From Aureispira sp. CCB-E (GTDB lineage Bacteria; Bacteroidota; Bacteroidia; Chitinophagales; Saprospiraceae), in assembly GCF_031326345.1 (NCBI RefSeq), contig NZ_CP133671.1, positions 6,979,501 to 7,043,500 of the forward strand: 64,000 nucleotides of DNA, in the 5' to 3' direction. The translations under genes and the position numbers were made by a program. This document shows positions 6,452 through 23,440 of this stretch, piece by piece. A model generated the notes under the pieces. The model had not been told where the DNA came from and searched no databases. It worked only from the letters and a program-made list of their open reading frames with translations. How positions within the stretch are numbered: the first letter of the stretch is position 1; the number at the start of each line of letters is the position of its first letter.

Positions 6452-6707
6452 TTAATTTTGTACTTAAAAAGTAATATAAATTGATGCGTTTACTTCTTCT
6501 CATCAAAAAAATACTTATACAATCTTATAAAAAAGCATAAGATACATTATTTACTGTTGAATTGAAAATGAGGAATAAAGCTCCATGAGTCCATTTGATT
6601 ACTAAACGGCTTTAAACATATCTAAAAAAAAGCACTAATAAACTAAATACGAAGATAGTATAATGCGCCAATACGCACTGATAATCTTAAAAGCTCTCTT
6701 TTTTAGG

Positions 6708-6739
6708 TTTGAATCCAAAATCACAGGACTATAACTTTG
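6708..6739 (+). promoter_or_regulatory. Bacteroidota promoter for the cluster 1 precursor
   Basis: TTTG (6708-6711), a 20-nt spacer, then TAACTTTG (6732-6739) matches the -33/-7 consensus TTTG-N19/21-TAnnTTTG used by the primary sigma factor of this phylum. It lies about 65 bases before the precursor ATG at 6805. The rest of the 353-base gap between ppk2 and the precursor shows nothing else I can name. Confidence 0.75.
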
Positions 6740-6804
6740 TTCCAATTTAATTCATGAAATCTTTACGGATTTCTAATTCATTTATCTTACAAAAACTTAT
6801 TACA

Positions 6805-7011
6805 ATGAAAAAAGTAGATTTGTTCAAAAATGCTGAAGTTATCAAATCAGATCAAATGAACGCAATTACTGGAGGAAACATGAGACTTATTTCTGATTCT
6901 TATGACAACGGTGATTCTGACCATCACGATAATGGGGACTCGGATCATCATGACAATGGAGATTCTGACTATGCAGACAATGGAAGTTCTAATCACTCTG
7001 ACAATGGCTAA
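6805..7011 (+). CDS. Double-glycine RiPP precursor with octapeptide-repeat core (cluster 1)
   Basis: This 68-residue precursor peptide has a leader of residues 1-24 (MKKVDLF... ending AITGG), typical of Bacteroidota 'GG' natural-product precursors cut by C39 peptidases. The core from residue 25 contains a tandem octapeptide: DNGDSDHH twice, DNGDSDYA, DNGSSNHS, then a final DNG. The core is rich in Asp, Asn, Ser, His and Gly, so it offers carboxylates and hydroxyls suited to ester cross-links made by an ATP-grasp ligase. I chose ATG 6805; an in-frame ATG at 6754 would fall only about 10 bases after the predicted transcription start and add an atypical extension. Its neighbours are maturation and export genes. 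The product is unknown. Confidence 0.85.
   Translation: MKKVDLFKNAEVIKSDQMNAITGGNMRLISDSYDNGDSDHHDNGDSDHHDNGDSDYADNGSSNHSDNG
6904..7008 (+). repeat. In-frame 24-nt tandem repeat encoding the precursor core
   Basis: Four 24-nt units plus a 9-nt partial unit encode residues 34-68 of the precursor. The units differ mostly at third codon positions in repeats 1-2 and at residues 7-8 in the later ones, so the peptide is conserved better than the DNA. This points to selection on the repeated peptide rather than recent slippage alone. Confidence 0.85.
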
Positions 7012-7045
7012 TCACAGGCTTTTTTAAAACCTAAAAGAACCGAAT

Positions 7046-7085
7046 AACTTGAGGTAGTTTTTATGTTTCATCTGCCTCAAGTTTT
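7046..7085 (+). terminator. Hairpin terminator or attenuator after precursor 1
   Basis: A 12-bp stem with one G-T pair (7046-7057 with 7072-7083) and a short T-rich tail follows the precursor gene by 34 bases. It should make most transcripts end after the precursor, giving more precursor than enzyme. The tail is weak, so partial read-through is likely. Confidence 0.65.
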
Positions 7086-7172
7086 AATAATAACTACTCT
7101 TAATCACCATGCACAACAATCCATTTATTTGACACGCTTGCTAGTTCAACCTGTACACCTGTCAATTGGTAC

Positions 7173-7203
7173 TTGCTAGTTGGTTACAATGAGTCTACCT
7201 TTG
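7173..7203 (+). promoter_or_regulatory. Candidate promoter for the cluster 1 maturation/export operon
   Basis: TTG (7173-7175), a 20-nt spacer and TACCTTTG (7196-7203) fit the phylum's promoter consensus. It lies after the precursor's hairpin and about 260 bases before the ATP-grasp gene, so the enzymes may have their own transcript. Two copies of cttgctagtt (7129-7180 region) flank it. Apart from this and the hairpin, the 455-base gap 7012-7466 holds nothing recognisable. Confidence 0.5.
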
Positions 7204-7466
7204 ACCAAAAAGTTATCACATAAAATCACATACAAACCTAAATAATTTTTGTGATCTGATTTTTCTTGGCACCAAGAATACTTCTTAGCCTTTTCCATCA
7301 TGATAGTAGAGATGCTCAAGATTCGCTTTTACTATAAATCAATTGACGAAAGCAAGTATTTACTTGGCTTCAAAATTATTAATTAGTTAAATCTAGACCA
7401 TAACTAGCGCGTTTCTTTTTTACATATAGACCATATATTTATTTTTTTATATTCAAAAGCATTGGT

Positions 7467-8495
7467 TTGAAATTTTTATTTTTAAGTACTCATTTTTCGG
7501 AAACACTCATTGAAAAAACACAATTGTATTGTATTCAACATGGCATTGAAGTTGTTCGAATCAATCTCGAAGATTTGTTACCCAATGGGATTAATGATAT
7601 ACAAGTAACTATTGGAGAAAACGATCTTTTATTTAAAGTCAACCAACAAGTTCATCACCTAAGCGAATTTTCTTTGATCTGGAAACGACGTATTAGCAAC
7701 AATTTTCTTTCAACAGGTAGATTGTTCAACAGTTACAAAGGCATTGTTCCCAATTATACTTTACAACAATTGATTAAAGAAGTCTATGACTTAAGGGATT
7801 TAATTCTAAACTTTGCTCGAAATATAGAAATTCCCATTGTTAACGATTATGACCCTGCCTGCAAAAACAAGCCCTTTCAAACAATCAAAGCAAACGCATT
7901 TGGATTAACATGTCCCTCCATGTTATTGTCTAATTCTATACAAGACATCAATCAATTTATTTCCCAGCACGACGCAACCATTACCAAACCAATAGGTGGT
8001 TTAGGATACCTTCCAGAGGAAGAAGAGATTATGAGCATCAAGACAACTTCTATTGATTTAAACGACACCAATGACGTCTCCTCAGATTTAATTTTTCCTT
8101 CCTTCATACAAGAACGTATTCCATCAAAATATGAACTTAAGTGTATTTTGGTAGGGGAAGAATTACATTGTGTAAAACAATATTACAAAGGAGGAGATAT
8201 CCCTACCACAGACATTAAGTTGGCTTATAGAAACCAACAAATCACCAACGAAGAATATCACCTAAATCAGAATGTAAAAAATAAGGTAATCAAGTTGTGC
8301 CGCTATTTCAAATTAGACTTATGTACCATGGATATTATCAAACGTTCTGATGGCAATTATGTTTTTTTAGAAATCAACCAAGATGGAGTTGTTGAATACT
8401 ACGGTTCGTTCCTGAGCATACCTATACACGAGCGCATTTTTCAATTATTACTCACCAAGTCCAAACAAAAAAAGGAAGCTCCCATCTTACAATAA
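7467..8495 (+). CDS. ATP-grasp peptide ligase, graspetide-type (cluster 1)
   Basis: This 342-residue protein is of the ATP-grasp RiPP ligase type, the enzymes that form side-chain ester or amide bonds in precursor peptides. Visible features are a Rossmann-like start (KFLFLSTHF), the nucleotide-binding Lys in 'ATITKPIGGLGY', 'FIQERIPSKYELKC' with the conserved E and R/K positions, 'DLCTMDIIK', and the metal-binding 'YVFLEINQDG'. The start must be TTG 7467, because no in-frame ATG or GTG precedes the conserved N-terminus. It sits six bases before a small gene and then a SPASM-like gene, so it is the natural modifier of the upstream octapeptide precursor. It is clearly diverged from the cluster 2 ligase. 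Confidence 0.87.
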   Translation: MKFLFLSTHFSETLIEKTQLYCIQHGIEVVRINLEDLLPNGINDIQVTIGENDLLFKVNQQVHHLSEFSLIWKRRISNNFLSTGRLFNSYKGIVPNYTLQQLIKEVYDLRDLILNFARNIEIPIVNDYDPACKNKPFQTIKANAFGLTCPSMLLSNSIQDINQFISQHDATITKPIGGLGYLPEEEEIMSIKTTSIDLNDTNDVSSDLIFPSFIQERIPSKYELKCILVGEELHCVKQYYKGGDIPTTDIKLAYRNQQITNEEYHLNQNVKNKVIKLCRYFKLDLCTMDIIKRSDGNYVFLEINQDGVVEYYGSFLSIPIHERIFQLLLTKSKQKKEAPILQ

Positions 8496-8501
8496 TCAAT
8501 T

Positions 8502-8696
8502 ATGAAACAAGAAAAAATTTTAGAAAAATACACCAATCTAGTAAATGAAGGAAAGCTGCCTTTGATGTTTAAAGCAATTAACTTTGAAGATTCTCAAAAC
8601 AACCACGAATTGAGACCCAAAAGAGCATTTTATTCACCTAAATTTAGCAACAGAGCTTTAAGTGTTAAATATACTGAACGTGCTTTATTGCCTTAA
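8502..8696 (+). CDS. Small basic protein between ATP-grasp and SPASM genes (cluster 1)
   Basis: This is a 64-residue ORF starting at ATG 8502, six bases after the ligase and four bases before the SPASM-like gene, so it is clearly part of the operon. It has no signal peptide, no cysteine and no GG motif. The N-terminal half looks helical (KILEKYTNLVNEGK). The C-terminal half is basic and aromatic (RPKRAFYSPKF, then VKYTERALLP). I do not recognise it. Cluster 2 carries a similarly sized basic protein in exactly the same slot, which suggests a partner of the ligase/SPASM pair or a second substrate. Confidence 0.65.
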   Translation: MKQEKILEKYTNLVNEGKLPLMFKAINFEDSQNNHELRPKRAFYSPKFSNRALSVKYTERALLP

Positions 8697-8700
8697 AAAT

Positions 8701-9435
8701 ATGAAAACAGAAGATTCCATTTATATCGTTAAAGGTAAATCTAAAAGTGCCTTAATTAATTTAGAAACTAGAGAGATTAGAACCCTTGCCAATACACAAC
8801 TCAAGCAGTTGGCTGATAACACTGATTTAACGGCTAGTTTAGCGCGTTATATCCCTCCTCAACTAGATATCTATCAAAAAGAAATTCTTGATATCAAGCT
8901 TCAACAACTGCCCCAAAGCCAAAATTTTAATTTTCTGAGCCAGTATTTCAACGATGATATAGCTTATTTCAATGTGCGTATTTTTTGCCCTGAAAAAAAT
9001 CCAATAGCCCTAGATTCCCTACAAACACTAGTCACATGGATTAATAACAATATCTTTCAATTTGGCATTGTCATTTTTATTTCGGATGCTTATCCCCTAG
9101 AAAAATTTTATAAGTACTTTGCAAGATATAGAGTGTTTAATAGAGAGTCTTCTAATACAAACAATACCCCCTACCAACCAATGTTGTATGGTAGTCCTAA
9201 CGCTATTTTTATTTCTCAGAAAAATAATTTGTACCACTACTCTAGAGATACGCTTCTCTTAGACAAGGACAAGGTGCAATTCATTGATCACGATCAATTC
9301 AACATTCCCAAATCTAATATTGAGGGATGCAAAGATTGTGCATTTAGATTAACTTGTTTTGATTTACGAGAAGTACAGCAAACGGATGGAAAATATCATT
9401 ACGATACCACTTGCTTGTATGAATTAGACCATTGA
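8701..9435 (+). CDS. SPASM-like Cys-motif maturation protein without radical-SAM motif (cluster 1)
   Basis: This 244-residue protein starts at ATG 8701 (GTG 8662 lies inside the preceding gene). Its C-terminus has C210, C213 and C219 (GCKDCAFRLTC) and C238, resembling the second half of a SPASM auxiliary iron-sulphur domain. The first SPASM half (C-x15-C) is not visible, and there is no CxxxCxxC in the N-terminal 200 residues, so it cannot be a standard radical-SAM enzyme. By position and motif it corresponds to the SPASM partner of the 'grasp-with-spasm' systems, in shortened form. It may bind a metal cluster or act as a recognition subunit for the ligase. Confidence 0.7.
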   Translation: MKTEDSIYIVKGKSKSALINLETREIRTLANTQLKQLADNTDLTASLARYIPPQLDIYQKEILDIKLQQLPQSQNFNFLSQYFNDDIAYFNVRIFCPEKNPIALDSLQTLVTWINNNIFQFGIVIFISDAYPLEKFYKYFARYRVFNRESSNTNNTPYQPMLYGSPNAIFISQKNNLYHYSRDTLLLDKDKVQFIDHDQFNIPKSNIEGCKDCAFRLTCFDLREVQQTDGKYHYDTTCLYELDH

Positions 9436-9440
9436 TTAGT

Positions 9441-11651
9441 ATGGCTTTAAAATTTCCATTTTACAGACAACTTGATGCGATGGACTGCGGTCCGACCTGT
9501 CTCAAGATGATTACTCAATGGCATGGAAAAACGTTTCCATTACAATATTTGAGAGAAAAGTGTTATATCACAAGAGAAGGAGTATCTCTACTAGGCATAT
9601 CGGAAGCTGCCGAAAGCATTGGTTATCGTACCATTGCGTTAAAGCTCACTTACGACCAAGAGGGGACGGTTCCTGGGCTCTTACAAATGCCTTTACCTTG
9701 TATTGCTTACTGGGGGCAAAGACATTTTGTGGTTGTTTATAAAATCACAAAAACACATGTTTGGATTGCTGATCCAGCAGAAGGAAAGCTAAAATTAAAA
9801 CGCTCTGTCTTTGAAAATTCTTGGTTGGTTGCCGAAAAAAAAGGGGTAGTATTGGGGCTCGAAACAACTCCTAGTTTTTATCAAGAAGACGATTTAGAAG
9901 AAGACCGATCTAAATGGCGGTATCTTTTTAGTTATCTCAAACCGTACAAGCGATTGATTTTTCAGTTTGTATTGGGCATGACCATTGGATTAATCTTCCA
10001 ACTTACCCTACCTTTTTTAACACAATCTTTGATAGATGTAGGAGTTAACAATCAAAACATAAGTTTTGTATGGTTGATTTTAATCGCACAACTTGTTTTA
10101 TCGGTTAGTCAGGTATTTGTTCAGTTCATCCAATCTTGGATTGCTCTCAATATAGGACGTCGAGTAAATGTCAATTTAATTGCCGATTTTCTAACTAAAA
10201 TGATGGCATTGCCTTTGGGTTTCTTTGACAGCAAAAACATTGGTGATTTGTACCAACGAATCAGCGACAATCATCGAGTAGAAACCTTTTTGACCAATTC
10301 ACTTCTAAACATGTTATTTTCTATAGTAACAGTTGCTGTTTTTTCGGGTGTTTTATTTGTCTATAATAAAGTTATTTTTGCTATTTTCTTCTTTTTTTCT
10401 ATCCTCTACCTGCTTTGGATTTGGGGCTTTTTAAAATGGCGCAAAGAATTAGATTACATGGCTTTTCAGCAGTTTTCTAACAATCAAGAAACCTTGTATG
10501 AAATTATCAATGGCGTTCAAGAAATTAAGTTGCAAGGAAGTGAGCGAAAACGACGTTGGAAATGGATAGAAGTGCAAGCCAAATTATTTAATGTCCAAAC
10601 CAAGTCCTTAGCCCTAAGGCAATATCAAGAATTTGGCGTTTTACTTTTTTCAAGACTCAAGGATATACTAATTTCTTTTGTTGCAGCAAGTGCTGTCATT
10701 AACGGAGAAATGACCTTGGGTATGATGGTTGCCGTTCAATATATTGTAGGGCAACTGAATGCTCCTTTTCAGCAATTTATAAGTTTTGTCTATACTGCTC
10801 AAGATGCTAAAATCAGCTTAGAACGAATGGGGGAAATTACTTCTGAAAAGGAAGAAAATGTTTCCAACATGTCCTTAATTAAACAGCTTCCTCCATCGGC
10901 TGATTTAGTATTAGAGAATTTATCTTTTGGCTATACACCTATCTCCAAACCTGTTCTAAACAATATCAATTTAACCATTCCTGCTGGCAAAACAACAGCT
11001 ATTGTTGGTGCTAGTGGTAGCGGCAAAACTACTTTGCTAAAACTATTACTAGGATTTTACGAACCTATCAACGGAAAAATATCAGTTGCAAAAACACCCT
11101 TATCCTCTATTGACAAACGCTATTGGCGAAGCCTTTGTGGCACTGTAATGCAAGATGGGTATATTTTTTCAGATACCATTGCTCAAAATATTGCCGAAAG
11201 CGATACCTCTATTGATTATAAAAAATTACATCAAGCGATTGAAATTGCCAATATTAGCGACTTGATTGCTACGCTTCCGTTAGGATACAATACAATGATT
11301 GGCTCTAAAGGGAGTGGCATATCACAGGGGCAAAAACAGCGTATTCTTATTGCTAGGGCGGTCTATAAAAATCCTGATGTATTGTTTTTAGACGAAGCAA
11401 CCAACGCTTTGGATACTTCCAATGAACGTCAAATTGTAGAAAATTTAAACCAGTTTTTAACCTCCAAAACCGTTGTTGTTGTAGCGCATCGACTAAGTAC
11501 CGTCATGAATGCAGACCAAATCGTCGTCTTGGATGAAGGAAAAATTGTTGAGCAGGGAACCCATCAAACCCTCTTAAACCAAAAAGGAAAATATTATAGA
11601 TTGGTTCAAAACCAACTTGATGTCGAACAAGTTGGAGTAAATATAGAATAA
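9441..11651 (+). CDS. C39-peptidase ABC exporter (cluster 1)
   Basis: This 736-residue bifunctional exporter cuts double-glycine leaders and transports the core across the inner membrane. The C39 domain shows C16 (DAMDCGPTC), H95 (HFVVVY) and D111 (ADPAEGK). A six-helix ABC transmembrane domain spans about residues 155-450, and the ATPase has Walker A GASGSGKTT, signature ISQGQ, Walker B VLFLDEATNALD and the H-loop VVAHRLS, all intact. ATG 9441 is chosen over TTG 9432 because the cluster 2 paralogue starts at the same residue. The reading frame opens just past the SPASM gene's stop. A 438-bp stretch of the ATPase is almost identical to the cluster 2 gene. Confidence 0.95.
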   Translation: MALKFPFYRQLDAMDCGPTCLKMITQWHGKTFPLQYLREKCYITREGVSLLGISEAAESIGYRTIALKLTYDQEGTVPGLLQMPLPCIAYWGQRHFVVVYKITKTHVWIADPAEGKLKLKRSVFENSWLVAEKKGVVLGLETTPSFYQEDDLEEDRSKWRYLFSYLKPYKRLIFQFVLGMTIGLIFQLTLPFLTQSLIDVGVNNQNISFVWLILIAQLVLSVSQVFVQFIQSWIALNIGRRVNVNLIADFLTKMMALPLGFFDSKNIGDLYQRISDNHRVETFLTNSLLNMLFSIVTVAVFSGVLFVYNKVIFAIFFFFSILYLLWIWGFLKWRKELDYMAFQQFSNNQETLYEIINGVQEIKLQGSERKRRWKWIEVQAKLFNVQTKSLALRQYQEFGVLLFSRLKDILISFVAASAVINGEMTLGMMVAVQYIVGQLNAPFQQFISFVYTAQDAKISLERMGEITSEKEENVSNMSLIKQLPPSADLVLENLSFGYTPISKPVLNNINLTIPAGKTTAIVGASGSGKTTLLKLLLGFYEPINGKISVAKTPLSSIDKRYWRSLCGTVMQDGYIFSDTIAQNIAESDTSIDYKKLHQAIEIANISDLIATLPLGYNTMIGSKGSGISQGQKQRILIARAVYKNPDVLFLDEATNALDTSNERQIVENLNQFLTSKTVVVVAHRLSTVMNADQIVVLDEGKIVEQGTHQTLLNQKGKYYRLVQNQLDVEQVGVNIE
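10977..11414 (+). repeat. Conversion tract, ATPase copy 1
   Basis: These 438 bases, from just before Walker A to just after Walker B, match 18668-19105 with about three mismatches, while flanking parts of the two exporter genes differ at many positions. This suggests recent gene conversion between the paralogues. Confidence 0.9.
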
Positions 11652-11653
11652 AC

Positions 11654-12919
11654 ATGTCAGATCAAAAATCCACTGAATTTACATTAATAGAGCAAGCGAT
11701 GGGAAACCCTCCCTCCTGGTTAACTCATTGGGGTATTACAGTGGTTGCACTCTTCTTTTGTGTTATTTTTGGTATTGCTGCCATGATAAAATATCCTGAT
11801 GTCTTAAAATCAGAAGCTACTACTTATATTGATCATCCTCCTATTGAGATATTCACACAAACTAATGGTAGAATACACACTTTATTGGTTCAAAATAAGG
11901 ATACCATTCGACACAATACTCCTATCCTTGTTCTTGAATCAACTGCTGACTGGCTAGCTGTTTTGCATTTAGATACACTTCTACAAACCAATAGATCTAT
12001 TTTTGATACCACGTTTATGTCAAAAGAGTTGGGGGATTTGAGCTCTGCTTACCATGAAGCTGCTTTATTATTTAAACAATTAGAGGATGCTCGCCAAAAC
12101 GACATTACCAATCAGCGCATCTCTACGCTTCAAAAAGAAATCGAACAAAACAACATATTGAACAATTCTTTGGTCGCACAAAAGGAAGTGTTTGCACAAG
12201 AATTAAAGAATATAAAAAAAGATTTGGATCGGTCTAAGAAACTCTTGCAAGATGGTGTCATTAGTCTTCAAGAATTTGAACAAAAAGAGAATACTTATCT
12301 ACAAAATGAGCGTACATTCCACCAAATGGAATCTTCTATTATTACCAATAAAATAAAAATACAACAATTAGAAATTCAAATCCCTGAATATAAAAAACAA
12401 CAACACGACTTTTTCTTTCGCTTAGAAGTTGATTTTCAACAAAAAAAGGAAGTACTTAAAACTGCGGTAGAGCACTGGAAGAAAAAATACATTCTTTATG
12501 CTCCTTCCTTTGGAATTGTCTCGATGAAGCACAAACTTCAAGAAGGAAATCAAATATCTCCCGACATTCCTGTGCTAACAATCTTGCCCAATACAGCACA
12601 AAAACAAGCATTTTTAAAAGCACTAATGGATGCCAATGGCATTGGTAAAGTTGCTGTTGGTCAAAAGGCTACTGTTTCTTTTAATAATTACCCCTCTGCT
12701 GAATATGGGATATTAACAGCAGAAGTTGTTGAAATTGCTCCTATCCCAACCGATAATCAGTATGAAGTCTTGCTAAAACTTCCGCAAAGTTGGGTTACCA
12801 ACTATGGGGTCTCCATCCCTAAACAACAAAAAATGAATGCTCATATTGCCATACAAACCAAGGAATTCACACTTTTGGAGCGTATCTTTTCTGGCTTGTT
12901 GGACGTGTTAAAAAATTAG
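11654..12919 (+). CDS. HlyD-family membrane-fusion adaptor (cluster 1)
   Basis: This 421-residue periplasmic adaptor begins at ATG 11654, two bases after the exporter's stop. It has a short cytoplasmic start (TEFTLIEQAMGNPPSWLTHWG), one transmembrane helix (about 25-46), a split lipoyl/barrel domain, and a long coiled coil (about 135-275) rich in Glu, Lys and Gln. The motif 'SKKLLQDGVISLQEFEQKE' is typical of adaptors paired with C39 exporters. It should link the exporter to a TolC-type channel; no TolC lies in this cluster, but one is encoded at 20631-22055. The last 379 bases are nearly identical to the cluster 2 adaptor. Confidence 0.93.
   Translation: MSDQKSTEFTLIEQAMGNPPSWLTHWGITVVALFFCVIFGIAAMIKYPDVLKSEATTYIDHPPIEIFTQTNGRIHTLLVQNKDTIRHNTPILVLESTADWLAVLHLDTLLQTNRSIFDTTFMSKELGDLSSAYHEAALLFKQLEDARQNDITNQRISTLQKEIEQNNILNNSLVAQKEVFAQELKNIKKDLDRSKKLLQDGVISLQEFEQKENTYLQNERTFHQMESSIITNKIKIQQLEIQIPEYKKQQHDFFFRLEVDFQQKKEVLKTAVEHWKKKYILYAPSFGIVSMKHKLQEGNQISPDIPVLTILPNTAQKQAFLKALMDANGIGKVAVGQKATVSFNNYPSAEYGILTAEVVEIAPIPTDNQYEVLLKLPQSWVTNYGVSIPKQQKMNAHIAIQTKEFTLLERIFSGLLDVLKN
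12541..12919 (+). repeat. Conversion tract, HlyD copy 1
   Basis: These 379 bases, ending exactly at the stop codon, match 20242-20620 with fewer than ten mismatches. The sequence diverges immediately upstream and after the stop. Confidence 0.9.
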
Positions 12920-13575
12920 ATTTAGTGTTAAAAGCTGTTAATATTTTTTATTCTAAAACTTTAATTTTTTGTTCTACCAAAGACTTTTTCTATTCTTTAA
13001 AAAACACCTTTCTGTACTTTTTTACTCCTTTTTCTTCGTTAACTCAAATGTTACTTTCGTTTGCTCTACTGTTCCATTCATTAGACCAAATGCATTTTTC
13101 CTTTTATAACTTTTTGCATTATTTAATGCTCTCAAAATAAATTTTAAAACAAAATGTATCCAAACGTAACACAATGTAAAACAAGTTAAAACAATGTAAA
13201 ACTATTTGCATTTATAAATTTTATATTCTACATTTGAAGCAGCCCCCTACTATTTTTCCTAATTCATGATCTACATTTTGTACATCCCCTTAGTCTGCAA
13301 AATTAAAACTAAATCCAATTTAATCAACTAAATCCTTTTTATTCCTAAATGCTACTCTACAATTACAAATAGATTTTACCCGCATAGTTAAAAGGCATTC
13401 TGTAAGCAATGCCCAGAATAGTTTTTAATCTATTACTCTGCCTATTACTGTCAGTTATAGATAAGGGATACCTGTACCCCATTTTGTCCTGATCATACAA
13501 AATTAAACCCCACAGGCGTTCAACTCACTTACGGAAAGTGGGATAACTCAATTTTTTTTAAATTTTATTTTAATT
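12920..13575. other. Intergenic region between the two RiPP clusters
   Basis: I find no credible gene in these 656 bases; a Phe/Leu-rich frame at 12925-13140 lacks a plausible start and composition. Several short repeats of acaatgtaaaac occur near 13160-13200. A strong promoter lies at 13205-13236, and a small hairpin (ggcatt/aatgcc, 13394-13413) sits in the long untranslated leader that would follow. Confidence 0.6.
13205..13236 (+). promoter_or_regulatory. Bacteroidota promoter for cluster 2
   Basis: TTTG (13205-13208), a 20-nt spacer and TACATTTG (13229-13236) are a full match to TTTG-N19/21-TAnnTTTG. The next gene is precursor 2 at 13576, so the transcript would carry an untranslated leader of about 330 bases. 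I found no better promoter closer to the gene. Confidence 0.65.
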
Positions 13576-13803
13576 ATGAAAATTCAAGAAAGTAAATTCG
13601 GTCAATTTGAAGCATTCAAAGTCAACAACCTTAAAAACATAATGGGAGGGAAACAAATTGAAGATGTCTGTACTTATGAAGAAGGCAGTAATACTTGTTC
13701 TGACTCTATTGCTGTTACTGTAGAAGATGATGGAGGGAGATTTAGAGATCAAGAGTTTGATTGTGCAGATTCTACGCCAACAGGTCTAGAGCCTGGAAAT
13801 TAA
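13576..13803 (+). CDS. Double-glycine RiPP precursor, Cys/Asp/Glu-rich core (cluster 2)
   Basis: This is a 75-residue peptide starting at ATG 13576. Leader residues 1-25 (KFGQFEAFKVNNLKNIMGG) end in the double glycine expected for C39 cleavage. The core of about 50 residues holds three cysteines (C32, C41, C63), many Asp/Glu and several Ser/Thr (SNTCSDSIAVTVEDDGG), so both cross-linking by an ATP-grasp ligase and disulphides are chemically possible. It has no repeats and no resemblance to the cluster 1 core. It stands first in the cluster, separated from the enzyme genes by a strong hairpin. The mature structure is unknown. Confidence 0.85.
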   Translation: MKIQESKFGQFEAFKVNNLKNIMGGKQIEDVCTYEEGSNTCSDSIAVTVEDDGGRFRDQEFDCADSTPTGLEPGN

Positions 13804-13821
13804 ACAGGGAATTTATCTACC

Positions 13822-13855
13822 CACCTAGATTGCAAAATGCAATCTAGGTGTTTTT
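13822..13855 (+). terminator. Strong hairpin terminator or attenuator after precursor 2
   Basis: A perfect 12-bp stem (cacctagattgc at 13822-13833 with 13839-13850), a 5-nt loop and TTTTT form a textbook intrinsic terminator 18 bases after the precursor stop. Since no promoter is obvious before the next gene, downstream expression probably relies on read-through. Confidence 0.85.
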
Positions 13856-13893
13856 CTAAAAAAATGTCATGACCATTAAATCAAGAATAAGTA

Positions 13894-14859
13894 ATGAAAA
13901 AAACATATTGGATACTATCTATTTTACTGATTTTATTGAATAATCTTTTTGCACAAGATTATATTTCTTACCACAATTTAGTCAATGAAGCAGAATATTG
14001 GATGTACAAAAAAGAGTATAAAAATGCTAAAATCCTGTATAAAAAAGCTTTTTGCTTAGAGGAACCAATGTGGAAAGATGCCTACTTATTAGCAAAGGCT
14101 TACGTTTTTTTAAACAAAAAAAAGAAAGCTCTTTGTTGGTTAAAAAAGAGCTCTGAAGCAAATGTTTCTTTTTGCTCTTGGTATTTAGAAAAGGAGAAAG
14201 AGCAAAAAGACTTTAAATCAATTTTTAACTCTTCTAATGATATGAAAGCCTTTATTAAAGAATTAAGAACAATAGAAGATGACCCTTCAAAAAAATCAAA
14301 CCAACAAGTATATCTTAATATACAAAAACAAGTTGATGAATTACTCAAAAGAGATCAAGCTATTCGGGAAGAATGTAGAAAAAGTGGTTTTACCAAAGAA
14401 TGCAAAGAGCGTATAGATCTAGAGGATTCAATTATACAAGAAAAATTATTAGCCATAACCAAAGAATATGGTTTTCCTGGTTCTAATTTAATAGGAAGTG
14501 ATTTGGTAACAATCATACTTGTTCACTTTGATAAAAAACGTTTTATTTCTTCATTAGATATCTTGTTATCAGAAGTAAAAAATGGAAACCTAATGCCCTT
14601 TTATTACGGATATATGCTTGATCGGTTCTATTGGAAATATATTGAAGATAAAAATGATAATCCATGTTATCTGAGTTTACTCTATACAAAGAAAAAATGC
14701 ACAGAGGAAGATTATGATGAAGTCATCAAACGAAGATTAGAGTTAGGAATTAGTCTTTTTTTTGATGGATCAAGATTTCGTATAAGGACTCATGAATTAC
14801 TTCCATGGGTAAACGAAGAATTCATTGAGAAATATTCTTTTTTGAAAAAAAATAAATAA
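13894..14859 (+). CDS. Secreted helical-repeat protein of cluster 2
   Basis: This 321-residue protein has a signal peptide (residues 1-20, ending LFAQ). It is followed by TPR-like helical repeats (about 25-95: 'AEYWMYKKEYKNAKILYKKA', 'AYVFLNKKKKALCWL') and a second helical domain with 'VDELLKRDQAIREECRK' that resembles the start of DUF6624-type domains. It ends one base inside the ATG of the ATP-grasp gene (TAATG), so the two are coupled and it belongs to the cluster. A periplasmic or surface location contrasts with its cytosolic enzyme partners, so it may act in immunity, processing or as a target. No equivalent exists in cluster 1. Confidence 0.7.
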   Translation: MKKTYWILSILLILLNNLFAQDYISYHNLVNEAEYWMYKKEYKNAKILYKKAFCLEEPMWKDAYLLAKAYVFLNKKKKALCWLKKSSEANVSFCSWYLEKEKEQKDFKSIFNSSNDMKAFIKELRTIEDDPSKKSNQQVYLNIQKQVDELLKRDQAIREECRKSGFTKECKERIDLEDSIIQEKLLAITKEYGFPGSNLIGSDLVTIILVHFDKKRFISSLDILLSEVKNGNLMPFYYGYMLDRFYWKYIEDKNDNPCYLSLLYTKKKCTEEDYDEVIKRRLELGISLFFDGSRFRIRTHELLPWVNEEFIEKYSFLKKNK

Positions 14860-15833
14860 TGGTACTTATACTAACACATGAACAAGACGTATCTACCCGT
14901 GGAGTAATACGATGGTTAGATTATTTAGGTAAGGAAGTAATTGTATTTCATAAAGAGCGGGATTGGATTAATATAAAAGATATAGACTATAATAAAGGTG
15001 AGGTTCTATTTGAGAGCAAAAATTATGGAGTGTTTGCTTTGTCAAATATTGAAGCCGTGTTTTGTCGTGGGGGAATAATACGAATAAAAGACTATGTAAA
15101 GCATCCTGGGCAATATGAAAATTTTAAAACAAGTCTACAGTATTTTTTATCCGCACATTCAATTTCACATTTAGAAGCTATTACGCATTTTTTGTTTGAG
15201 AAAAATACTATTGGTCAAAATGGAGTTGGCAGGTACAACAAAATGCTAGCGCTTAACCTTGCTAAAAAAGTAGGTCTAGACATACCCCATACAATTTTTA
15301 CAGATTCAAAAGAAAAAGCCCTTTCATTCTGCAATGAACATGATGAGATTATAACAAAGAGTTTGGATCTTAATTTTATGTATCAAGACACCAGAAATGC
15401 AAAACGTTTTTTTGAATATACTGCTATTATTACAAAAGCAGATATAGAAGGTTTACCAACTAAATTTGGTTTAACAATCTTTCAAGAAAAAATAAATAAG
15501 CAATATGAGATTAGAGTTTTTTATTTAAAGGAAAAACTATATTGCTTTGCAATTTTTTCTCAAAAAAATAAAAAGACTCAAGTAGACTATAGATGTTATG
15601 ATAGAGAACGAATGAATCGGATGATTCCTTTTCAGCTCCCTCTAGATGTTGGGAAAAAAGTTTCTGCATTTATGAAAAAAGCAAAGCTCGACACAGGTTC
15701 TATTGATCTTATTTATGGGCTAGATAAAAAATTTCACTTCTTAGAAGTAAATCCAATAGGGCAATTCGGTTATTTATCAAATATCAATAATTATAAAATT
15801 GAAAAACAAATTGCTTTAGCATTAATAAATTAG
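14859..15833 (+). CDS. gwsG: ATP-grasp peptide maturase, grasp-with-spasm type (cluster 2)
   Basis: This 324-residue ligase closely fits the GwsG family (ATP-grasp partner in grasp-with-spasm RiPP systems). Features are an N-terminal 'LTHEQDVSTRGVIRWLDYLG', 'RYNKMLALNLAKKVGLDIPHT', the ATP-binding Lys in 'IITKSLD', 'FQEKINKQYEIRVFYL', and the metal-binding 'FHFLEVNPIGQFGYLS', a near-signature ending. It would install ester or amide cross-links on the upstream acidic precursor. Its ATG overlaps the stop of the preceding gene by one base. Gene symbol by family resemblance from memory. Confidence 0.9.
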   Translation: MVLILTHEQDVSTRGVIRWLDYLGKEVIVFHKERDWINIKDIDYNKGEVLFESKNYGVFALSNIEAVFCRGGIIRIKDYVKHPGQYENFKTSLQYFLSAHSISHLEAITHFLFEKNTIGQNGVGRYNKMLALNLAKKVGLDIPHTIFTDSKEKALSFCNEHDEIITKSLDLNFMYQDTRNAKRFFEYTAIITKADIEGLPTKFGLTIFQEKINKQYEIRVFYLKEKLYCFAIFSQKNKKTQVDYRCYDRERMNRMIPFQLPLDVGKKVSAFMKKAKLDTGSIDLIYGLDKKFHFLEVNPIGQFGYLSNINNYKIEKQIALALIN

Positions 15834-15843
15834 AACTTTTACA

Positions 15844-16095
15844 ATGAAAAACATCAAACTAGAGAGGCTATTAAAAGCAAATAAACTGGAGACTACAATA
15901 CTCCCTGCTGATATTTATTTTTCAAAAACACTTGATATAAAAAGGGATAACATAAATCATAAATCTACAATTATTTCTCCTATAAGAATACAAAGATACA
16001 ATTACATAGGCAAGGAAATTTATGTTCCTAAAAAAAATATTTCTAAAATATTAAATCCAAATCAAATAATTACAGATGAAAATACTAGCCACTAA
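15844..16095 (+). CDS. Small basic protein between gwsG and gwsS (cluster 2)
   Basis: This is an 83-residue ORF from ATG 15844, ten bases after the ligase; its last 20 bases overlap the SPASM gene in another frame. It is Lys/Asn/Ile-rich, has no signal peptide, no cysteine and no GG motif, and shows 'IISPIRIQRYNYIGKEIYVPKKN'. I do not recognise a family. The matching gene in cluster 1 (8502-8696) shares position, size class, basic aromatic character and an 'SP' followed by basic and aromatic residues, but no convincing alignment is visible by eye. Confidence 0.65.
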   Translation: MKNIKLERLLKANKLETTILPADIYFSKTLDIKRDNINHKSTIISPIRIQRYNYIGKEIYVPKKNISKILNPNQIITDENTSH

Positions 16096-17110
16096 TTGTA
16101 AGATAACTAAAGGACTTCAAAGAGCTTGTATATCTGATTTTCAGCACCAAGAATTTTGGTTTATCCCACTAGAACTTGCAGCCTTTCTTGAGTATAAAAA
16201 GGATTATTCAGAACTAAGTAAACTAAGTGTAGATTTATTGCAAAAACTGGAGCTTTTAGATGTTGTTTTAGAGATAGATTCAAGTGACAAAAACTTTATG
16301 ATTGAGATTCCACTTGACTTCGATGTTCCATATCATATTTCAAATGCTATTTTAGATTATAATCAAACATCTACATATAACTTTAAAAATATTCTTCATC
16401 AGCTAAAAGAGATAAATTGTCCTCATCTTGAAATCAGATTTTATGACGTTCTTGATTTTTTATTATTGTATTCTATTAGTGAAGTAAGTAAGAACTCTAC
16501 TATAGAATCTATAGATGTATATCTTCCTTACGAAACTCATTTTCCATATAAAAAATTAGAAATGTTACGAGCTAATAATCTAAGATTTCGTTGGTTTTTT
16601 ATACACAGCGTTCCATTAGAATTTACCCCTAAAAAAGAAGAGCACCAGTTTGTCAAACATACTAATCAGGTTATAACCGATCAAGGTCATTGTGGAGCAG
16701 TACATTACTTTTATTTTGAACCACACATTTCTGTTTTCACAGAATCCCAACACCACAACACCTGTCTTAATCGGAAAATATCTATCGACACAGATGGCAA
16801 CATCAAAAACTGCCCCTCGATGCAACAATCCTTTGGACACATTAGCAATACGACCTTAGAAGAAGTCATTAAAAACCCAGCATTTACTAAAATGTGGGAC
16901 ATAAAAAAAGATGACATTGATAAATGTAAGACCTGTGAGTTTCGGCATATATGCACAGATTGTCGAGCTTATTTAGAAAACCCAGATGATTTATACGCTG
17001 CTCCCTTAAAATGTGGCTATAATCCCGAAACTTGTGAATGGGAGGAATGGAGCACCAATCCTCTAAAAGAAAAAGCCATCGAATACTATCAGCTTCAATC
17101 GATACTCTAA
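16076..17110 (+). CDS. gwsS: SPASM-domain peptide maturase, grasp-with-spasm type (cluster 2)
   Basis: This 344-residue protein has a complete SPASM-type Cys set: C230-x15-C246 around 'KISIDTDGNIKNC', then C284, C287, C293 and C296 (CKTCEFRHICTDC), and two late Cys in 'CGYNPETC'. These normally hold auxiliary iron-sulphur clusters. The N-terminal 229 residues may keep a radical-SAM-like barrel, but no CxxxCxxC is present, so SAM chemistry is doubtful. The gene overlaps the small gene before it by 20 bases and is followed by the exporter 21 bases later. It is taken as the GwsS partner of the ligase; its biochemical role is not known to me. Confidence 0.85.
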   Translation: MKILATNCKITKGLQRACISDFQHQEFWFIPLELAAFLEYKKDYSELSKLSVDLLQKLELLDVVLEIDSSDKNFMIEIPLDFDVPYHISNAILDYNQTSTYNFKNILHQLKEINCPHLEIRFYDVLDFLLLYSISEVSKNSTIESIDVYLPYETHFPYKKLEMLRANNLRFRWFFIHSVPLEFTPKKEEHQFVKHTNQVITDQGHCGAVHYFYFEPHISVFTESQHHNTCLNRKISIDTDGNIKNCPSMQQSFGHISNTTLEEVIKNPAFTKMWDIKKDDIDKCKTCEFRHICTDCRAYLENPDDLYAAPLKCGYNPETCEWEEWSTNPLKEKAIEYYQLQSIL

Positions 17111-17131
17111 CCCAATCTTATTTTCCCAATT

Positions 17132-19336
17132 ATGCCTCTAAAATTCCCATTTTACAAACAGCTAGATGCCATGGACTGTGGACCAACCTGCCTCAAAATG
17201 ATTGCACAATGGCATGGCAAATCGGTACCTTTACAATACTTAAGAGAACAGAGTTACATTACTAGAGAGGGGGTATCTATGTTAGGTATTGTCGAAGCAG
17301 CAGAAAATATTGGCTATCGCACCATTGCTGTACAACTCCATTATGCAAAAGAAAAAGACACACTTGGTTTAATGCAGTTTCCGCTACCTTGCATTGCTTA
17401 CTGGCAACAAAAACACTTTGTTGTTGTCTACAAAATCACTAAAACACATATTTGGGTTTCGGATCCAGCCGAGGGAAAATTAAAACTAAAGCGCTCCTTC
17501 TTCGAAAAGGGTTGGTTGAATAAAAATAAAAAGGGTATTGTTTTGGGTTTAGAAACAACACCTGCTTTCTATGCAGAAAATGTAGAAATGCAGAATACTT
17601 CTAATTGGAAGTATTTGATTGGATATATCAAACCATATAAGCGGTTAATTTTTCAGTTTATCTTGGGAATGATGACTGGCTTGGTTTTTCAATTGATGTT
17701 CCCTTTTCTTACTCAGTCATTAATTGATGTTGGTGTCAATAATCAAAACATTAGCTTTGTTTCGTTGGTCTTAATTGCTCAACTAGTCTTGTCCATTAGT
17801 CAAGTTTTTGTTCGTTTTATTCAATCTTGGATTGTACTTAATATCGGGCGTCGAGTAAATGTCAATTTGATTGCTGATTTTTTAGCTAAGATGATGCGCT
17901 TGCCCTTAGGTTTTTTTGATGCTAAAAATGTAGGGGACTTATACCAACGAATTAGTGACAACCATAGAGTAGAATCTTTTTTGACAGGATCAGTACTCAA
18001 TATGCTCTTCTCAATAGTTACTGTTTTTGTATTTTCAAGTATTCTACTGTTATACAACAGCCTTATTTTTGTTGTTTTTTTATTTTTCTCTATTCTTTAT
18101 TTGCTTTGGGTATGGGGCTTTTTAAAATGGCGCAAAGAGCTAGATTATATGGCATTTCAACAAGCTTCAGATAATCAACAAGCATTGTATGAAATTATCA
18201 ATGGTGTTCAAGAAATTAAGTTGCAAGGAAGTGAGCGAAAACGACGTTGGCAATGGGTAGAGATACAAGCCAAATTGTTCAGTGTTCAAACCAAATCATT
18301 GGTCTTGCGACAATATCAAGAATTTGGAGTACTACTCTTCTCTAGACTCAAGGATATATTGATCTCTTTTATTGCTGCATCAGCTGTTATTAATGGCGAA
18401 ATGACGTTGGGAATGATGGTTGCTGTTCAATATATTGTGGGGCAATTAAACACTCCTTTCCAACAGTTTATAAGCTTTGTCTATGCTGCTCAAGATGCCA
18501 AAATCAGCTTGGAACGTATGAATGAAATCACCGCTGAAAAAGATGAAAATACAACAACAGTCCATTCTATACAGCAACTGCCCAAAACATTCGATTTAAA
18601 GTTAGAAAAATTGTCTTTTAGTTATACGCCTATTGCTTCTCCTGTTTTAAAAGAATTAAACTTAACTATTCCTGCTGGCAAAACAACGGCTATTGTTGGT
18701 GCTAGTGGTAGCGGCAAAACTACTTTGCTAAAATTATTACTAGGATTTTACGAACCTATCAACGGAAAAATATCAGTTGCAAAAACACCCTTATCCTCTA
18801 TTGACAAACGCTATTGGCGAAGCCTTTGTGGCACTGTAATGCAAGATGGGTATATTTTTTCAGATACCATTGCTCAAAATATTGCCGAAAGCGATACCTC
18901 TATTGATTATAAAAAATTACATCAAGCGATTGAAATTGCCAATATTAGCGACTTGATTGCTACGCTTCCGTTAGGATACAATACAATGATTGGCTCTAAA
19001 GGGAGTGGCATATCACAGGGGCAAAAACAGCGTATTCTTATCGCTAGGGCGGTCTATAAAAATCCTGATGTATTGTTTTTAGACGAAGCAACCAACGCTT
19101 TGGATGCTACAAACGAACGAGAAATTGTGGAAAAACTAAACCAATTTTTAGCTTCCAAAACGGTTATTGTAGTAGCACATCGACTAAGCACCGTCATGAA
19201 TGCGGATCAAATCATTGTCTTGGATAATGGCAAAATTGTAGAGCAGGGCACGCACCAAACATTATTAAACCAAAAAGGAAAATATTATCAACTTGTCCAA
19301 AACCAATTGGATGTGGAACAAGTAGGTGTCAATTAA
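17132..19336 (+). CDS. C39-peptidase ABC exporter (cluster 2)
   Basis: This 734-residue exporter is closely related to the one in cluster 1. The peptidase residues are C16, H95 and D111, followed by the transmembrane region and an intact ATPase (GASGSGKTT, ISQGQ, LFLDEATNALD, VVAHRLS). It should remove the GG leader of precursor 2 and export the core. Most of the gene is moderately diverged from cluster 1, but 18668-19105 is almost identical, so the nucleotide-binding core has been homogenised. Because the peptidase domains also remain similar, cross-processing of the two precursors is possible. Confidence 0.95.
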   Translation: MPLKFPFYKQLDAMDCGPTCLKMIAQWHGKSVPLQYLREQSYITREGVSMLGIVEAAENIGYRTIAVQLHYAKEKDTLGLMQFPLPCIAYWQQKHFVVVYKITKTHIWVSDPAEGKLKLKRSFFEKGWLNKNKKGIVLGLETTPAFYAENVEMQNTSNWKYLIGYIKPYKRLIFQFILGMMTGLVFQLMFPFLTQSLIDVGVNNQNISFVSLVLIAQLVLSISQVFVRFIQSWIVLNIGRRVNVNLIADFLAKMMRLPLGFFDAKNVGDLYQRISDNHRVESFLTGSVLNMLFSIVTVFVFSSILLLYNSLIFVVFLFFSILYLLWVWGFLKWRKELDYMAFQQASDNQQALYEIINGVQEIKLQGSERKRRWQWVEIQAKLFSVQTKSLVLRQYQEFGVLLFSRLKDILISFIAASAVINGEMTLGMMVAVQYIVGQLNTPFQQFISFVYAAQDAKISLERMNEITAEKDENTTTVHSIQQLPKTFDLKLEKLSFSYTPIASPVLKELNLTIPAGKTTAIVGASGSGKTTLLKLLLGFYEPINGKISVAKTPLSSIDKRYWRSLCGTVMQDGYIFSDTIAQNIAESDTSIDYKKLHQAIEIANISDLIATLPLGYNTMIGSKGSGISQGQKQRILIARAVYKNPDVLFLDEATNALDATNEREIVEKLNQFLASKTVIVVAHRLSTVMNADQIIVLDNGKIVEQGTHQTLLNQKGKYYQLVQNQLDVEQVGVN
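18668..19105 (+). repeat. Conversion tract, ATPase copy 2
   Basis: Partner of 10977-11414: 438 bases with about three differences, flanked by clearly diverged sequence on both sides. Confidence 0.9.
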
Positions 19337-19348
19337 AAAACATATAAA

Positions 19349-20620
19349 ATGCCAGATAACACACCAACTACGGAATTCACATTGGTAGAGCAAGCGATGG
19401 GTAACCCTCCAGGATGGTTGACCTATTGGGGGATTACTGTTGTTTCACTTTTTTTAAGTATTGTCTTAGGAATTGCAGCCGTAATCAACTACCCTGATGT
19501 CTTACAAGCAAAAGCTACGACTTATATCAACCGTCCACCAGTTGAGGTTTTCGCCAAACAGACAAAAACCATCAACACACTTTTAGTCCAAGAAAAAGAT
19601 ACCATTGAATGTAATACTCCTTTAATTATTTTTGAATCATCTGCTGCTTGGGAAGCCGTATTAACATTAGACACTTTATTAAAAAACAAAAACACCCCTA
19701 TTAACACTAAATATCTATTAGCAAGCAACTTAGGTACACTCAATACAGCATACCAAGAGCTAGTCCTGTTAGAACAACAAATTAAAGATGCCTACACAAC
19801 AGATATTACACCTGATCGTATAAGAACTATAAAAAAGGAGATTGAACAAAACAAAGCACTTAATGCCTCCTTATTAAAACAAAAAGAAGTGTTCGAAAAA
19901 GAGCTAAATAACATCCGAAAAGATTGGGAACGCTCCAAAACATTACTACAAGATGGCGTTATTAGTCCACAAGAGTTTGAGCAAAAAGAAAATGTTTATT
20001 GGCAGAGCAAACGTTCTTTTCATCAAATGGAATCTACACTTATTTCTAATCAAATAAAAATCCAACAATTAAGCCTGCAAATTCCTGAATCTGAAAAACA
20101 AAAGCATGACTTCTTTTTTAAATTGATAACCGAACGTTCAAAAAAATACGAAGTACTCAAAACAGCTATAGGGAAATGGAAAAAAGAACATATTCTCTAT
20201 GCTCCTATTGCTGGTGTATTAGAGTTTAATTCTATAACATTAGAAGGAAATCAAATATCTCCCGACATTCCTGTGCTAACAATCTTGCCCAATACAGCAC
20301 AAAAACAAGCATTTTTAAAAGCACTAATGAATGCCAATGGCATTGGTAAAGTTGCTGTTGGTCAAAAGGCTACTGTTTCTTTTAATAATTACCCCTCTGC
20401 TGAATATGGGATATTAACAGCAGAGGTCATTGAAATTGCCTCTATCCCAACCGATAATCAGTATGAAGTCTTGCTAAAACTTCCGCAAAGTTGGGTTACC
20501 AACTATGGGGTCTCCATCCCTAAACAACAAAAAATGAATGCTCATATTGCCATACAAACCAAGAAATTCACACTTTTGGAGCGTATCTTTTCTGGCTTGT
20601 TGGACGTGTTAAAAAATTAG
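19349..20620 (+). CDS. HlyD-family membrane-fusion adaptor (cluster 2)
   Basis: This 423-residue adaptor begins 12 bases after the exporter. It shares the start 'TEFTLVEQAMGNPPGWLTYWG', one transmembrane helix (about 27-46), a coiled-coil hairpin (about 135-275) and 'SKTLLQDGVISPQEFEQKE' with the cluster 1 adaptor. The C-terminal 126 residues are nearly identical to it, while the coiled coil and N-terminus have diverged. The stop lies ten bases from the convergent TolC gene's stop, with no room for a classical terminator between them. Confidence 0.93.
   Translation: MPDNTPTTEFTLVEQAMGNPPGWLTYWGITVVSLFLSIVLGIAAVINYPDVLQAKATTYINRPPVEVFAKQTKTINTLLVQEKDTIECNTPLIIFESSAAWEAVLTLDTLLKNKNTPINTKYLLASNLGTLNTAYQELVLLEQQIKDAYTTDITPDRIRTIKKEIEQNKALNASLLKQKEVFEKELNNIRKDWERSKTLLQDGVISPQEFEQKENVYWQSKRSFHQMESTLISNQIKIQQLSLQIPESEKQKHDFFFKLITERSKKYEVLKTAIGKWKKEHILYAPIAGVLEFNSITLEGNQISPDIPVLTILPNTAQKQAFLKALMNANGIGKVAVGQKATVSFNNYPSAEYGILTAEVIEIASIPTDNQYEVLLKLPQSWVTNYGVSIPKQQKMNAHIAIQTKKFTLLERIFSGLLDVLKN
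20242..20620 (+). repeat. Conversion tract, HlyD copy 2
   Basis: Partner of 12541-12919: 379 bases, both copies ending precisely at the TAG stop. Confidence 0.9.
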
Positions 20621-23431: not shown

Positions 23432-23440
23432 TCTTTCATT

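Follow-up and report, generated by a model that had tools for sequence, protein, structure and literature searches.

Two tandem ATP-grasp and SPASM peptide clusters in Aureispira, one of them a candidate graspetide pathway with an eight-residue repeat core

Two complete gene clusters for ribosomally synthesized and post-translationally modified peptides (RiPPs) stand in tandem in the genome of the marine bacterium Aureispira sp. CCB-E, raising the question of whether one peptide factory was duplicated there and what the first of the two clusters makes. The window analyzed is a stretch of 64,000 nucleotides of this 7.39 Mb genome (contig NZ_CP133671.1, positions 6,979,501 to 7,043,500), and positions are given within it. 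Cluster 1 (6805-12919) and cluster 2 (13576-20620) lie on the plus strand as intact open reading frames (ORFs) in the same order, namely a precursor with a Gly-Gly (GG) leader, an RNA hairpin, an ATP-grasp ligase, a small basic protein, a SPASM-type protein, a C39 peptidase exporter of the ATP-binding cassette (ABC) type, and an HlyD-type protein. An earlier note on this DNA had called both of them ATP-grasp and SPASM RiPP clusters with C39 export, and sequence supports this assignment for each; the common order that it described holds for the seven shared parts, to which cluster 2 adds a protein of 321 residues that is absent from cluster 1.

Curated protein families separate the two clusters. 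The ligase and SPASM protein of cluster 2 score over the cut-offs of TIGR04192 and TIGR04193, and cluster 2 is an ordinary, known grasp-with-SPASM graspetide type. The cluster 1 pair falls far under the same cut-offs, with 87.3 bits against 230 for the ligase and 21 bits against 175 for the SPASM-type protein, the latter over residues 212-254 only, and the best-scoring family for the ligase, TIGR04184, gives 88.8 bits against a cut-off of 475. The scores support the note's remark that cluster 1 matches no family it could name, and cluster 1 is best filed as a rare, strongly altered graspetide-type system outside the curated grasp-with-SPASM families. The two precursors had been described as unrelated and, compared by eye, they look so in both leader and core.

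The reading preferred here, with moderate confidence, is that cluster 1 is a graspetide pathway making one ester ring per eight-residue repeat, with a SPASM partner and single-cut export. The leader would bring the 68-residue precursor to the ATP-grasp ligase, which would phosphorylate the Asp of each S-x3-D unit so that the Ser four residues earlier could attack and close a small ester ring. Five rings would form on the precursor of the window and five to seven on those of its relatives, all on one exported chain. A SPASM-type protein that retains half of the SPASM cysteines (half-SPASM) and the small protein with its LPL motif would act as non-redox partners holding leader and ligase together, not as a radical enzyme, and the C39 exporter would cut once after GG and export the whole ringed chain. 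Cluster 2 would be a separate grasp-with-SPASM pathway having only the exporter type in common with cluster 1. The ester linkage, the direction of pairing, the partner role, and the single cut are predictions from sequence.

The repeat core and its variation between strains

The cluster 1 precursor (6805..7011, plus strand) consists of a GG leader followed by five in-register S-x3-D units in a 44-residue core. Alignment with relatives places its most likely start at 6805, within an in-frame ORF that opens at 6754. Cluster-1-type loci were found in this genome and in three others: CCB-QB1, which is of the same species and the nearest named relative encountered, a further Aureispira genome (G003), and a Saprospiraceae metagenome-assembled genome of another genus (MAG-108). 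G003 contains two precursors, and one was found in each of the other genomes. After the GG, the cores of all five precursors are runs of S-x3-D-x-G-x in register, with 5, 5, 6, 6, and 7 units, and none of the five arrays was reached by shuffles of its own residues (0/5000 each). Arrays of at least three units at period 8, with S/T and D/E allowed, were solely those of four cluster-1-type precursors among 57 GG-precursor candidates from 48 loci; this list came from a regular expression, includes obvious non-precursors, and holds no candidate for 17 of the 48 loci. The cluster 1 precursor combines a leader with a core of paired hydroxyl donors and acidic acceptors, as a graspetide precursor should. 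Across the 29 units, positions 2, 4, and 8 are variable, whereas His or Tyr fills position 3 in 21, Asn position 6 in 19, and Gly position 7 in 27. Ser1 is encoded by TCN in 23 units and by AGY in six, all of the latter in MAG-108, and Gly is drawn from four codons.

No Ser occurs before the array and no Asp after its last unit in any of the five precursors, and D-x3-S units always number one fewer than S-x3-D units, which argues that Ser pairs with the Asp four residues downstream in every unit. Graspetide-like links in some other pattern, whether D-x3-S, between units, or nested as in plesiocin, are a less likely arrangement that still deserves weight. The same periodicity yields n-1 D-x3-S units in every precursor, positions 2 and 8 are often Asp too (14/29 and 14/26 units), and each repeat of plesiocin and thuringinin carries two esters (PMC12291112). 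However, a D-x3-S pattern would leave the first Ser and the last Asp of all five arrays unused, and between two strains Asp at position 8 is changed to Asn twice and Asn at position 2 to Asp once.

Comparison of the window with CCB-QB1 gave 88 differences over 10,890 aligned bases, 20 of which fall inside one 132-base interval at the core. This density was reached in 0/5000 uniform placements, and the densest other interval, just upstream at 6632, holds 10. In the core-coding stretch (6877..7008, plus strand), 19 of 132 bases differ, compared with 0/69 in the leader and 2/1029 in the ligase, where both changes are synonymous and none is a replacement; four genes of cluster 2 (precursor, 321-residue protein, ligase, and the small-protein gene up to the SPASM start) show zero differences. 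The proportion of synonymous differences (pS) is 0.50 in the core, and no other coding stretch tested exceeds 0.054. The core changes comprise 12 synonymous and 7 replacement base changes affecting six residues, three of them in the prefix of the core and the others at unit positions 8, 8, and 2, with none at Ser1, Asp5, or Gly7. Since the synonymous divergence is too high for selection on the peptide alone, the core looks to have been exchanged under constraint, through a short recombination tract carrying a different core allele that is mostly in register with the previous one. Unit shuffling inside the core was considered as a source of the strain differences and is not supported, as the best match is the in-register one for four of the five units; the exception is unit 3 of the window, which differs from unit 2 of CCB-QB1 at 3 bases and from its unit 3 at 4. 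Upstream of the precursor, the 55 bases at 6628-6682 carry ten substitutions and a single gap relative to CCB-QB1, and 201 identical bases separate this patch from that of the core.

The ligase and the distribution of cluster 1

The cluster 1 ATP-grasp ligase (7467..8495, plus strand, TTG start) was placed through family profiles, a tree, and alignment. The catalytic residues K135, K174, Q215, E223, D249, D289, E302, and N304 are kept in all three distinct cluster-1-type ligases, in which ExK, with K225 as its Lys in the ligase of the window, stands for the [D/E]xR motif. By sequence, the nearest solved structures are the microviridin-type ligase 5ig9 (1.4e-15) and CdnC 7mgv (5.8e-10). A ligase tree of 62 rows, whose bootstrap had not settled, was built after removal of rows under 250 residues and of copies sharing their last 150 residues; the CCB-QB1 ligase, identical to that of the window, was among those removed. 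The three cluster-1-type ligases group together (100/100) on a stem of 2.6 changes per site. This clade pairs with the SPASM-associated ligases (96/88), away from 17 ligases of microviridin and other types, and falls outside the 42 sampled grasp-with-SPASM ligases, with support for this exclusion of just 84/78. A SPASM-type protein is present at the locus in 41 of 42 grasp-with-SPASM rows, in 3/3 cluster-1-type rows, and in 0/17 of the other ligases, many of the loci counted being merely about 3-4 kb long. Given this placement, the ligases and precursors of the two clusters do not look like a recent duplicate pair.

Close relatives of the cluster 1 ligase are rare. At E <= 1e-25 they occur in 4 of 398 genomes of the family, namely the four named above with the genome itself included, and a precursor profile recovered the same four among 248 genomes. 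This shared occurrence was counted in favor of a joint, ring-forming role. Among 59 other relatives, G003 has a close ligase and G025 an additional match of 24% identity, while a pattern scan of the contig collection, which reaches close relatives only, returned two loci, in CCB-QB1 (L016) and MAG-108 (L017). In 298 genomes of the order, 32 matched at 1e-5, and beyond the genome's own copy none exceeded 81 bits compared with 745. The half-SPASM protein had one match among 395 genomes of the phylum, its own (G003 is evidently not in that sample), and three among 60 relatives: its own, that of G003, and, over 40 residues, an ordinary SPASM protein of G008. All four genomes carry the genes for precursor, ligase, small protein, and half-SPASM as open reading frames. 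CCB-QB1 has the same tandem pair, in that L016 runs into the second SPASM gene and a second exporter lies on the same contig. Beside the MAG-108 cluster, a gene at 10193-11476 of L017 encodes a Pycsar effector domain (PF18967, 1.4e-29) and is possibly a phage-defence gene. In the main texts of PMC8939145 and PMC13097080, supplementary lists aside, no mention of Aureispira, Saprospir-, or SxxxD was found, and literature searches returned no paper for 'grasp-with-spasm' and PMC8939145 alone for TIGR04193.

The SPASM-type protein, the exporters, and the neighboring genes

The ligase gene is followed by that of a 64-residue basic protein (8502..8696, plus strand), which stands directly before the SPASM gene, where the LPL family is found, and has a KLPLMF motif; the YKPIS-like end common in others is missing. 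A small LPL protein in this position has been described, and a chaperone-like role proposed for it (PMC8939145). Next comes the half-SPASM gene (8701..9435, plus strand), whose start was set by alignment with the MAG-108 relative in an ORF that opens at 8662. Its product lacks about 90 residues, the CxxxCxxC motif, and four of the SPASM cysteines, and keeps CX2CX5C...C. The earlier note was right that each cluster has a SPASM-type protein, but that of cluster 1 retains only four of the eight cluster cysteines. The kept cysteines are presumably, from SPASM structures, the ligands of auxiliary cluster II, and the missing four those of auxiliary cluster I.

Cysteine sets (I+II) were tabulated over 45 distinct SPASM-type proteins, after removal of rows under 230 residues and of copies sharing their last 60 residues. 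The sets are 4+4 in 27, 0+4 in 10, 0+0 in 4, and 0+1 in 1, and the remaining three rows (2+0 twice and 4+3; L027, L032, and L034) are truncated by the end of a locus or contig. The 0+4 rows comprise four cluster-1-type proteins, with the same losses in 4/4, and six ordinary grasp-with-SPASM members, so the half-SPASM state is not peculiar to cluster 1. The loss of cysteines in nearly complete sets of four, the I set first, suggests that the SPASM clusters are dispensable and hence that they are structural. The CxxxCxxC radical SAM motif was found in 0/45 SPASM-type proteins, both proteins of the window included. PMC8939145 terms the SPASM protein a radical SAM enzyme, a label that is not supported here since this motif is missing. 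No test of the role of the SPASM protein was found in the parts of the literature covered.

SPASM-type proteins with none of the eight cysteines were seen at the grasp-with-SPASM loci L038/L069, L044/L120 (one cysteine in L044), L048/L122, L049/L123, and L080/L139; four of the five larger loci are without a GG precursor candidate, and L122 gave doubtful regular-expression hits only. The idea that cysteine-bearing precursors occur only beside eight-cysteine SPASM proteins was rejected, as candidates free of Cys lie beside such proteins in L107, L110 (3/4), L119, L132, and L134. L138, with four cysteines only in its SPASM protein, is a further counter-case with cores of three and four Cys; L067 and L140 would have fitted.

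The absence of half the SPASM cysteines and of some 90 residues, the long stem of the ligase, and the simple repetitive precursor could also mark cluster 1 as a decaying grasp-with-SPASM copy. This is very improbable, given that the precursor, ligase, small protein, and half-SPASM gene are open in four genomes, that the ligase differs between strains by synonymous changes alone, that the losses are identical in every half-SPASM row, and that the core changes avoid Ser1, Asp5, and Gly7.

Several results weigh against the proposed ring-forming pathway. The S-x3-D count is perfect by construction inside the arrays, the real tests being the shuffles and the comparison with 57 candidates, and the five precursors are related, two of them from one species, so their arrays are not five independent events. 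The Arg of [D/E]xR is replaced by Lys in 3/3 cluster-1-type ligases and present in 59/59 others, and the corresponding DFR motif has been called critical for activity (PMC13097080). By hhalign, the LPL relation of the 64-residue protein is not significant (probability 1.9%, P 0.025, 15 columns; reversed control P 0.29). The reading of the SPASM N-terminus as a possible RiPP recognition element (RRE) comes from a structural model with a mean predicted local distance difference test score (pLDDT) of 63.9 with 36 rows, compared with 47.8 with 4 rows. A PqqD profile matched 0/36 SPASM-type members at E <= 0.1. Foldseek on the SPASM model returned nothing at E <= 0.001, the best match having an E of 0.083 and the SPASM enzyme 5why appearing among noise at 0.24 and 0.36. 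When solved structures were searched with the SPASM alignment, the single match was 7uek 'OT3' (E 0.046), which was not used.

The replaced Arg, together with a core rich in Asp, Asn, Gly, and His, would also suit an acidic, His- and Asp-rich repeat peptide that binds metal or calcium, the ExK ligase doing something else (e.g., adding a residue) or being no longer a macrocyclase. This is an improbable product, as the candidate metal-binding positions 2, 3, 4, and 8 vary whereas Ser1 and Asp5 are constant, and as the four genomes with the ligase are also those with the precursor.

Export in both clusters involves a C39 peptidase ABC exporter, identified with Pfam at 9441..11651 in cluster 1 and at 17132..19336 in cluster 2, and an HlyD-type protein, identified with Pfam at 11654..12919 in cluster 1 and named at 19349..20620 by alignment with that copy, as it had no Pfam hit at 0.001 (all on the plus strand). 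The earlier note had the exporters kept alike. They are alike partly through gene conversion, since two near-identical tracts stand out against 48-89% likeness in the remaining 150-base bins of the tandem exporter/HlyD pairs. By pairwise alignment, the first tract (11044..11414 with 18735-19105, plus strand) spans 371 bp within the ATPase domain and has a single mismatch, and the second (12541..12919 with 20242-20620, plus strand) spans about 380 bp at the 3′ end of HlyD with 97-98% likeness. CCB-QB1 also carries the ATPase-domain tract, as an identical run of 374 bases.

In a FastTree exporter tree, the Aureispira copies of both cluster kinds and that of G006 form one group against the other sampled exporters, and the cluster 1 exporters of the window and G003 do not pair. 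Over the first 500 residues, however, the cluster 1 exporter of the window is 84.4% identical to that of G003 and 79.2% to its tandem partner. Together with the same gene order, the grouping of the Aureispira exporters and this failure to pair would fit a single duplication of the whole cluster followed by divergence. Such a history is nevertheless doubtful, as the cluster 1 ligase stands beside and not within the sampled grasp-with-SPASM ligases, on a branch and stem where long-branch error is possible, and as the cluster 1 module occurs in MAG-108 with no exporter in the surrounding 15 kb, the best exporter relatives in that genome being 60% and 55% identical and on other contigs. Of the duplicated and diverged factory that had been suggested, at most the exporters fit, while the module of ligase, precursor, and half-SPASM protein would be a separate lineage.

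Behind the cluster 1 precursor lies an RNA hairpin with a 12-pair stem (7046..7083, plus strand; folding test z -4.6), a possible attenuator or partial terminator, and behind that of cluster 2 a terminator-like hairpin (13822..13850, plus strand; z -4.7). A terminator scan listed four terminator-like sites in the region versus a mean of 7.7 in shuffles, with the second hairpin among them and not the first, so both hairpins rest on the folding test.

The remaining genes of cluster 2 are all on the plus strand. Its precursor (13576..13803; ORF list, by eye) has a GG leader and a core with three Cys. The 321-residue protein (13894..14859), with a start like a signal peptide and TPR-type matches below cut-off in a profile search, is encoded between precursor and ligase. 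The ligase (14859..15833) reaches 238.5 bits against 230, an 83-residue small protein follows in the ORF list (15844..16095), and the SPASM protein (16076..17110), with 278.8 bits against 175, has all eight SPASM cysteines and no CxxxCxxC. At about 5.15 Mb the genome holds a third cluster (L013, 5375-12463), again of the cluster 2 kind; its leader matches that of the cluster 2 precursor in all but one of 25 residues, its core differs, and a transposase-like ORF (named by eye) stands just upstream. A fourth grasp-with-SPASM locus at about 6.58 Mb (L065, 7037-9644) has a ligase match with one internal TGA. On one contig of G529 (L070, 3198-13791), three grasp-with-SPASM ligase/SPASM pairs stand in a row with several precursor candidates. 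Abutting the end of cluster 2 on the minus strand, 20631-25174 encodes an outer membrane efflux protein (PF02321) and, by eye, an HlyD-like protein and an ABC transporter, a group that is a possible outer-membrane partner for the exporters.

Known systems and the role of the SPASM protein

Among known systems, cluster 1 is most like grasp-with-SPASM (TIGR04192/TIGR04193), which is branch 5 of PMC8939145 and appears to correspond to group 14 of PMC13097080. Both combine a GG precursor with an ATP-grasp ligase and a SPASM-type protein that has a small protein immediately ahead of it; both include a C39 exporter and an HlyD-type protein, and their ligases are neighbors in the tree. Cluster 1 differs in falling far under both cut-offs, in its ExK, half-SPASM protein, and tandem S-x3-D core, and in having no 321-residue protein. 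The ligases of microviridin and chryseoviridin type are the nearest by solved structure, yet none of the 17 sampled ligases of microviridin and other kinds has a SPASM-type protein as neighbor, and the cores of these systems are different from that of cluster 1.

A ring between residues i and i+4 is plausible given the precedent of corallotide (graspetide group 15), in which five KxxxD motifs are cyclized by a graspetide ligase with a partner protein (PMC13097080). Corallotide resembles cluster 1 in its five repeated motifs, in donor and acceptor lying four apart, and in its partner-dependent ligase. However, it comes from Corallococcus and has a Lys lactam and hydroxylation by a 2-oxoglutarate (2OG) oxygenase, whereas cluster 1 has Ser in strictly tandem eight-residue units, and no oxygenase gene was seen among the cluster ORFs listed. 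Plesiocin and thuringinin are multivalent graspetides with tandem ringed repeats on one chain (PMC12291112), as predicted for cluster 1, with their two ester links per repeat set against the one predicted here.

A wider proposal, put forward tentatively, is that cluster 1 represents a separate graspetide lineage of bead-string peptides, with a five-residue Ser-Asp ester ring in each eight-residue unit, a Lys-for-Arg ligase, a core swapped by recombination, and a SPASM scaffold, and that SPASM cysteines have been lost in fours across grasp-with-SPASM. The Lys-for-Arg change offers a natural test of the function of the [D/E]xR motif, and the repeat substrate lets the number of rings per chain serve as a readout. 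The series of complete, half, and cysteine-free SPASM proteins, together with a minimal cluster on a simple repeat, makes the role of the SPASM protein directly testable. If it is true that the cysteines are lost in sets of four, one set and then both, the SPASM protein would generally be a structural partner and not a redox enzyme.

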